NCBI RefSeq assembly: GCF_019352895.1 | Contig: NZ_JAAAFX010000008.1 | Span: 1 to 64,000 of the forward strand | DNA: 64,000 bases | Direction: 5' to 3' | Origin: Variovorax boronicumulans | GTDB lineage: Bacteria > Pseudomonadota > Gammaproteobacteria > Burkholderiales > Burkholderiaceae_C | Shown here: piece after piece, positions 7,506 to 9,320 of the stretch | How positions within the stretch are numbered: position 1 is the first letter of the stretch | How the letters are laid out: every line of letters starts with the position of its first letter | Position numbers and translations under genes: made by a program | Notes under the pieces: model-generated | Databases searched by the model: none | Seen by the model: only the letters and a program-made list of their open reading frames with translations | What the model was told of the DNA's origin: nothing

Positions 7506-7934
7506 CTAGAAGGGCTTGACGACCACCAGCACCACGATGGCCAGCAGCAGCAGCACCGGCACCTCGTTGAACCAGCGGTACCAGCGGTGGCTGCGCATCG
7601 GCGCGCCCGCCACGAACTTGCGCAGCAGCACGCCGCAGCCATGGTGGTAGCCCAGCACCAGCAACACCAGCGCCAGCTTGGCGTGCATCCAGCCATTGCC
7701 CGGGCCGCGGCCGATGCCGTAGCCCATCCACAGCCAGAGGCCGAAGACCAGCGCCGGCACGGCCAGGAAGGTGGTGAAGCGCATCAGCTTGCGCGCCATG
7801 AGCAGCAGCCGGGCTCGCTCGGCTTCGGAGCCGGGCGGCACCATGGCCAGGTTCACGAAGATCCGCGGCAGATAGAACAGGCCGGCGAACCAGCTGGCGA
7901 TGAAAACGATGTGCAGCGACTTGATCCAGAGCAT
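7506..7934 (-). CDS. HemJ/CopD-like membrane protein (UPF0093 type)
   Basis: The 142-residue protein has four predicted membrane helices. The N-terminus LWIKSLHIVFIASWFAGLFYLPRIFV closely follows the HemJ signature, with the histidine of the first helix present, and a second conserved region reads GWMHAKLALVLLVLGYHHG. HemJ is the oxygen-independent protoporphyrinogen IX oxidase of many Proteobacteria; the related CopD domain is linked to copper. The divergent neighbour is hemB, another heme gene, which favours the HemJ reading. This is inference; the family is broad and some members are not oxidases. Confidence 0.7.
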   Translation of the reverse strand: MLWIKSLHIVFIASWFAGLFYLPRIFVNLAMVPPGSEAERARLLLMARKLMRFTTFLAVPALVFGLWLWMGYGIGRGPGNGWMHAKLALVLLVLGYHHGCGVLLRKFVAGAPMRSHRWYRWFNEVPVLLLLAIVVLVVVKPF

Positions 7935-8032: not shown

Positions 8033-8135
8033 CCAAAAAAAAGCCCGGCGTCGAACGCCGGGCTGGGAAGCCCTTTTGCTGTCACACATCAAGGCACCCG
8101 CTCAGGGAGGAAAAGCGGGGAGCGGCAAGCCGCCC
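8033..8135 (-). ncRNA. Candidate small RNA with anti-Shine-Dalgarno loop
   Basis: Three stem-loops follow each other on the minus strand. The first is GCGGC-TT-GCCGC near the 5' end. The second has a perfect 6-base-pair stem (CCCGCT/AGCGGG, 8114-8119 with 8097-8102) and an 11-base loop at 8103-8113 that contains CCTCCC, complementary to a Shine-Dalgarno sequence. The third is a perfect GC-rich hairpin (8043-8065) followed by eight T residues, a textbook intrinsic terminator. A good promoter lies just upstream, and no protein-coding frame fits. CCUCC loops mark several families of trans-acting riboregulators in Proteobacteria. No assignment to a named family was possible. Confidence 0.65.
8035..8065 (-). 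terminator. Intrinsic terminator of the small RNA
   Basis: On the minus strand AGCCCGGCG-TTCGA-CGCCGGGCT is an uninterrupted stem-loop followed by a run of eight T. It points towards the HemJ-like gene but lies upstream of that gene's start, so it must end a transcript that begins inside the intergenic region. Confidence 0.85.
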
Positions 8136-8141
8136 GGAAGT

Positions 8142-8170
8142 AATTTAACAAAGCAGCAAGAACGTATCAA
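8142..8170 (-). promoter_or_regulatory. Sigma-70 promoter for the small RNA
   Basis: On the minus strand TTGATA (8170-8165, five of six matches to the -35 consensus) and TAAATT (8147-8142, four of six to the -10 consensus) are separated by exactly 17 bases. The start would fall near 8135, about 100 bases before the terminator T-run. Confidence 0.6.
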
Positions 8171-8213
8171 GCGCGTGAACCACTATTTTTTAACAATTAA
8201 CAGTCGGCATTGA

Positions 8214-9320
<1,107 letters not shown>

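Follow-up and report, generated by a model that had tools for sequence, protein, structure and literature searches.

The small RNA anti-hemB (Rfam RF02837) has been described in Burkholderia. A list of trans-acting RNAs of B. pseudomallei includes it (PMC3521395), and in B. cenocepacia it is ncS04, an RNA of 105 nt that appears on a Northern membrane according to the figure legend, does not change significantly across the seven conditions that Table 2 of the same paper gives, and is cited there as binding Hfq (PMC5688073). Co-purification of the Burkholderia RNA with Hfq is described in PMC4603805. A review gives hemB as the predicted target of Bc7 of B. cenocepacia, with RybB as its reported homolog (PMC6321483); Bc7 is probably the same RNA as "Burkholderia RNA 7", a name of anti-hemB.

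Two other small RNAs, ErsA and sX13, are relevant to the comparison. The ersA gene sits in the gap between polA and engB (PMC8575079), and Shine-Dalgarno-type pairing is described for ErsA on algC (PMC6321483). The sX13 gene is described as always lying downstream of polA, in a paper that also asks whether sRNAs occupy the polA locus of other bacteria (PMC3771888), and pairing of the sX13 loops with G-rich motifs is shown in the sX13 literature.

The window analysed here is a 64,000-nucleotide stretch of Variovorax boronicumulans (contig NZ_JAAAFX010000008.1). The best overall explanation of its sRNA gene, which we regard as probable, is a form of RF02837 that would be transcribed by sigma-70, held by Hfq, and active in blocking Shine-Dalgarno sites, and that would have descended from a sigma-E-controlled sRNA of the polA/engB locus.

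The anti-hemB gene of the window

The covariance-model check proposed in the first-pass annotation, run as a cmscan of the whole window against Rfam 15, gives a full-length match to RF02837 at 8121-8035 on the minus strand (69.2 bits, cut-off 49.5, E 4.1e-14, model positions 1-81 of 81). RF02837 is the sole Rfam model over its gathering score anywhere in the window, and the double-hairpin toxic small RNA model RF02278 has no window match at the Rfam cut-off. The element had been called a new small RNA; this claim of novelty fails because the element is RF02837, already catalogued in Rfam and reported in Burkholderia as anti-hemB/ncS04. The sequence gives good support to the claim that this is an sRNA gene with a promoter and a terminator of its own, whose RNA exposes an anti-Shine-Dalgarno loop, and chance is excluded because of the Rfam match, the double-sided pair changes, and an exact 53-base core found in 81 public genome stretches. 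Judged by these sequence matches, the window carries the anti-hemB sRNA in its Comamonadaceae form, a variant of the known family because promoter class, second hairpin, and terminator loop differ lineage-wide.

The gene is read from the minus strand. A sigma-70-type -35 element, TTGATA (8165-8170), and an extended -10 (8142-8150), composed of TG (8150-8149), T, and TAAATT (8147-8142), are found both in the sequence and by the promoter scan, and the spacer between TTGATA and TAAATT is 17 bases, exactly as first read. Placed from the -10 position, the transcription start would lie near 8135, which together with the Rfam match and the fold delimits an sRNA of approximately 101 nt (8035-8135). 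The RNA from 8135 to 8035 folds with -49.3 kcal/mol (z -3.50), and none of 200 shuffles is equally good. Between 7700 and 8500, the scans return two promoter-like sites, compared with 0.1 in shuffles, and four terminator-like sites, compared with 1.2. Open reading frames overlap the sRNA stretch mechanically.

The predicted fold comprises four hairpins rather than the three first described. The 5' hairpin, SL0, spans 8120-8135, and in many relatives a 5' hairpin seems, by eye, to be present upstream of SL1 too. SL1 (8097-8119) displays CCUCCC (8110-8105) in its loop, the presumed seed for pairing with Shine-Dalgarno sequences. SL2 (8070-8095) carries GUGACAGC at 8085-8078. The intrinsic terminator (8035-8064), identified by terminator scan, fold, and a covarying stem, consists of a hairpin (8064-8042) and a T run (8042-8035). 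The CCUCCC hairpin and the terminator are as first described: the 6-bp stem with an 11-base loop stands, with 7 pairs and a 9-base loop as the alternative in the predicted fold, and the eight T are found.

RF02837 is matched at E<=0.001 in 126 of 150 genomes of the family (117 over the cut-off), in 154 of 200 genomes of the order (133 over the cut-off), and in 89 of 185 genomes of the class, of which 10 exceed the cut-off and two of these ten belong to the family itself. Three of 14 control genomes also match below the cut-off, so weak anti-hemB hits alone prove nothing, and for this reason weaker class loci were left out. The loci compared below are 70 from the 117 over-cut-off family genomes and 70 from the 133 of the order, fetched mostly best scores first and one copy per genome, and 24 from the class, each of at least 39 bits and together covering 22 family codes, with weaker and some equally strong unfetched hits excluded; order and class counts thus rest mostly on best-scoring rather than random loci.

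The loop is nearly invariant in these relatives, and the stems show the compensating changes that the first-pass annotation had suggested looking for. All 70 family loci have CCTCCCT, as do 69/70 order and 22/24 class loci, and the longer loop motif TCCTCCCTGA occurs in 67/70, 57/70, and 7/24, respectively. Of the 20 predicted pairs, ten are changed on both sides in one or more of 49 family sequences, including an SL1 stem pair that reads C-G in 33 of these sequences and U-A in the other 16. Local shifts in the alignment leave the A1-derived model with just 12 pairs. The exact 53-base core was fetched from 80 of its 81 genome stretches; 73 are titled Variovorax, Xenophilus, or Pseudacidovorax, and seven carry broader names.

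SL2 and the terminator loop vary by lineage. SL2 contains GTGACAGC or ATGACAGC in 60/70 family, 0/70 order, and 0/24 class loci; the window's GUGACAGC (8078-8085, minus strand) is nearly fixed in the family and absent from the fetched order and class loci, and may act as a second seed or be bound by a protein. A CU-rich terminator loop, scored by a loose pattern, is found in 8/70 family, 65/70 order, and 16/24 class loci.

Additional copies occur in some genomes. Two to four head-to-tail sRNA copies are seen in class genomes at L072 (G515:C33:13148-13886), L073, L074, L075, and L107, most copies having, by eye, their own sigma-E-like promoter. One family genome, G087 (loci L005 and L076-L079), has six anti-hemB matches, of which five are convincing and two are in tandem; at L005, neither hemB nor hemJ lies within the flank. 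In the window's own genome, a second anti-hemB-like match (L002, G000:C13:1965778-1965860, 27.4 bits) is probably spurious or decayed, and the match at L080 looks spurious or decayed as well.

Gene neighbourhood and possible kinship with ErsA and sX13

The sRNA of the window is not at a polA-engB gap; instead, it is flanked by hemB and hemJ. The divergent neighbor, at 8313-9320 on the plus strand, is hemB, encoding porphobilinogen synthase (NF006762, 506.4 bits, cut-off 297; PF00490), and the downstream neighbor, at 7506-7934 on the minus strand, encodes a HemJ-like protein of the UPF0093 type (PF03653, E 2.2e-41). Synteny at the fetched loci was scored by tblastn within approximately 1.5 kb of the sRNA, less at contig ends, with engB, polA, and cytochrome queries from one class genome; neighbor absences are therefore soft, because the flanks are short and the queries come from a single class genome. 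The identities of the queries were checked with one query each, and hemB (NF006762), engB (TIGR03598), and polA (DNA polymerase I) were each top-listed. The partial polA of L062 exceeds the TIGR00593 cut-off, and the cytochrome neighbor has two cytochrome c domains and is presumably of the "c4" type.

Among the 70 family loci, hemB lies upstream and divergent in 60 and the HemJ-like gene downstream in 57, with no engB and no cytochrome match by tblastn within those flanks of approximately 1.5 kb. Among the 70 order loci, hemB is upstream in 54, engB is downstream in 52 and on the other side in 10, and a c-type cytochrome gene is present in 53 and on the other side in 10. The 24 class loci have polA upstream in 13 and on the other side in one, engB in 16 and one, respectively, and the cytochrome gene in 12. 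At the fetched loci of ErsA (1/1) and sX13 (2/2), polA is upstream. The recurrence of hemB in 60/70 family and 54/70 order loci contradicts the earlier suggestion that the site beside heme genes might be due to chance. From this shared synteny and the printed locations of ErsA and sX13, anti-hemB appears to be a tenant of the ErsA/sX13 locus, with hemB replacing polA in Burkholderiales. In one class genome, a c-di-GMP-I riboswitch (L068:2037-2121, 77.9 bits) is located approximately 450 bases from the sRNA.

The Rfam models of the better-studied RNAs meet anti-hemB on intermediate sequences. The ErsA model (RF01719, Pseudomon-1) matches in 8/185 class genomes and 0/14 controls, once over the cut-off, and five of the seven sub-cut-off hits fall on same-strand anti-hemB hits (G515, G409, G488, G500, G400). 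The sX13 model (RF02232) matches in 10/185 class genomes and, below the cut-off, in 1/14 controls; two hits exceed the cut-off, and three of the eight that do not fall on same-strand anti-hemB hits (G515, G427, G481). At the four-copy locus L072, all copies score below the cut-off with anti-hemB (35.9 to 41.8 bits); one copy also matches sX13 (48.3 bits, cut-off 50) and ar14 (38.0, cut-off 58.8), and another matches the ErsA model (37.1 bits, cut-off 50). Neither the ErsA nor the sX13 model has a match in the window's genome at E<=0.001. A model derived from 29 sequences of the class matches the right places of the window (47.5 bits), of sX13 (30.5 and 28.6), and of ErsA (24.8), and the doubtful sites L097 (33.3), L094 (29.0), L002 (23.7), and L080 (22.5) score comparably to ErsA and sX13 on it. 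Spot 42 (RF00021) was tried as a relative and rejected: its model, positive in the E. coli control, matches in none of the 185 class genomes, the window's included.

Anti-hemB, ErsA, and sX13 likely share descent, as judged from these overlaps and the common locus. Alternatively, the three RNAs would be non-homologous, with CU-loop sRNAs having arisen independently in a polA/engB spot that favors sRNA genes. CU-rich loops do recur in unrelated sRNAs, and the ErsA and sX13 scores on the class model are weak (24.8 to 30.5 bits), with doubtful sites scoring alike. Spot 42, too, is described as lying between polA and yihA/engB (PMC3295665), though its model finds nothing in the 185 class genomes. 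Against independent origins stand the same-strand overlap of independent Rfam models on intermediates, the sigma-E-type motif seen by eye in the ErsA locus and present in 20/24 class loci, and the gene order common to the anti-hemB class relatives, ErsA, and sX13; we consider independent origins unlikely. A search of the open-licence literature found no publication joining anti-hemB with ErsA or sX13. Shared descent would tie anti-hemB, which is little studied, to two better-studied regulators, and through this tie an envelope-stress function is suggested for Burkholderiales outside Comamonadaceae.

Promoter class and its probable change

Promoter motifs were scored in the 80 bases before SL1 and compared with approximate dinucleotide shuffles (20 repeats); the resulting promoter classes are sequence matches only. 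The core GAAC[TC]-N15-19-TC[TAC], which we take to be the sigma-E promoter type, is found in 4/70 family loci (shuffles 1.2), 63/70 order loci (9.1), and 20/24 class loci (3.5), and the strict form GGAACT-N16-18-TC[TA]NA in 0/70 (0.0), 42/70 (2.5), and 6/24 (0.6), respectively. A sigma-70 arrangement of a TTG -35 and a -10 at 16-18 bases is present in 33/70 family (shuffles 5.7), 0/70 order (1.3), and 4/24 class loci (0.8), and an extended -10 in 49/70 (10.0), 1/70 (2.0), and 2/24 (1.1). Among the 80 loci with the 53-base core of the window, every one has the extended -10, 78 have the TTG form, and a single locus has the sigma-E core; in the window itself, GAAC[TC]-N15-19-TC[TAC] is absent from the 80 bases upstream of SL1. 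Since publications describe ErsA as sigma-22 dependent, its locus, in which a sigma-E-type motif is present by eye, serves as a positive control; at the two sX13 loci, inspection by eye reveals no such motif.

A quick HemB tree of 113 loci, in which 48 of 110 forks are open, needs two changes of the two promoter labels. L003 and L144, the sole sigma-E-only family loci, branch beside the remaining family, the fork of which is weakly supported, and the sigma-E match of L003 is poor by eye. The order loci L045 and L157 nest weakly inside the family, and the group adjoining the family (L173, L050, L160, L181) has neither promoter label.

The family sigma-70 elements might instead be chance matches, expression remaining sigma-E dependent through an unrecognised site. 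RpoE is over the cut-off in 49/60 family genomes, the window's included, and 11/70 family loci fit neither motif class, as this reading would allow. It is nevertheless very improbable, given that the sigma-E core occurs in only 4/70 family loci (shuffles 1.2) as against the extended -10 in 49/70 (shuffles 10.0), and that loci with the 53-base core have the extended -10 in 80/80 and the sigma-E core in 1/80.

The idea that RpoE loss caused the promoter change is not supported family-wide; because RpoE persists over the cut-off in those 49 genomes, the change did not need its loss. Weak best RpoE matches (E 6e-12 to 3e-28) are seen in G007, G013, G021, G028, and G036, which fall together in a single HemB-tree sub-branch; G030 and G034, of the same sub-branch, have near-cut-off RpoE. 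G029, a genome without an sRNA match, has a weaker RpoE match than those five. We infer that the apparent RpoE loss in the sub-branch came after the promoter change.

Most likely, then, the gene encodes an ancient sigma-E-driven anti-Shine-Dalgarno RNA that was put under housekeeping control in Comamonadaceae. The ancestor would have been a sigma-E-controlled sRNA beside polA and engB, in the place of ErsA and sX13. In Burkholderiales, the sRNA gene would have come to adjoin hemB, and near the base of the family the sigma-E promoter and the CU-rich terminator loop would have been lost, and a sigma-70 promoter and the GUGACAGC element of SL2 gained. We give about an even chance to the fuller account, in which anti-hemB, ErsA, and sX13 would all be the same ancient anti-Shine-Dalgarno sRNA, driven by sigma-E and belonging to the polA-engB locus, that occurs in many of the families in the class and in some cases as tandem copies, with a single or nearly single move in Comamonadaceae to a constitutive sigma-70 promoter, the seed loop fixed, and RpoE apparently lost in some genomes of one sub-branch. 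If this is true, the change of promoter would offer a clean example of an sRNA that keeps its seed under a new transcriptional master.

Predicted mode of action and comparison with described systems

The anti-Shine-Dalgarno end of the ribosome itself carries the same CCUCC as the SL1 loop, and pairing with strong Shine-Dalgarno sequences is therefore the simplest mechanism; the near-invariant CCUCCC loop fits the blocking of ribosome sites in trans. In the proposed sequence of events, the housekeeping sigma factor would direct transcription from approximately 8135 to 8035, Hfq would hold the sRNA through its U tail, and the SL1 loop would pair with the Shine-Dalgarno sequences of several mRNAs, so that ribosomes are blocked.

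The window's genome contains 17 sites of the pattern AGGGAGGA-N2-10-ATG, compared with one for the pattern read backwards, and eight of the 17 open into frames of >100 aa. The first 70 residues of six candidate targets were scanned; four have Pfam matches (a response regulator, EVE, type IV pilin-like, and DUF4197, the last below the cut-off), and two do not, one of which looks by eye like a membrane protein. The response-regulator candidate, which has matches in 40/40 family genomes, is not conserved as a target: among the 29 loci scored of 30 fetched, the start being chosen automatically and roughly, GGGAGG and hence the pairing is kept only at the window's own locus.

The family name implies an antisense-type regulator of the neighboring hemB, and hemB is both the upstream, divergent gene in most family and order loci (60/70 and 54/70) and the gene that Bc7 was predicted to target in B. 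cenocepacia (PMC6321483), but this reading is very improbable, given that the sRNA pairs with the hemB leader (-60 to +40) no better than its shuffled versions do (mean z +0.27 over 60 family loci and +0.03 over 54 order loci), that polA, not hemB, adjoins the sRNA in 14/24 class loci, and that a promoter-like site at 8197-8226 (9/12 matches), if it belongs to hemB, does not overlap the sRNA. Antisense to hemB was rejected for this absence of excess leader pairing, because of which the name anti-hemB misleads and the hemB adjacency looks inherited rather than functional.

Blocking of Shine-Dalgarno sites in trans, the preferred reading, can be set beside the described systems. The RF02278 toxic small RNAs are likewise short, with CU-rich loops complementary to ribosome sites (PMC5688073), but their model does not match the window at the Rfam cut-off. 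Spot 42, for which no homology is claimed, resembles the class relatives in having its gene between polA and yihA/engB (PMC3295665). Similar to the window sRNA, sX13 is described as constitutive, with C-rich loops directed against G-rich motifs near start sites; its reported position, always downstream of polA (PMC3771888), and the shared intermediates link it to the class relatives, whereas its action in Xanthomonas is described as Hfq-independent and its model has no match in the window's genome. ErsA differs in being sigma-22 dependent (PMC8575079, PMC6321483), in its loops, and in a model without a match in the window's genome. Like the class relatives, ErsA occupies the polA-engB gap (PMC8575079) and shares intermediates with them, and as an Hfq-dependent RNA that pairs with the algC ribosome site (PMC6321483), it would work alike. 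With RF02837 in Burkholderia, the window sRNA shares the whole model, the CCUCCC loop, the terminator, and the hemB neighbor. Compared with RF02837 elsewhere, the Comamonadaceae form has a sigma-70-type promoter, (G/A)UGACAGC in SL2, and only rarely a CU-rich terminator loop, and it has a HemJ-like gene where the order has engB and a c-type cytochrome gene.
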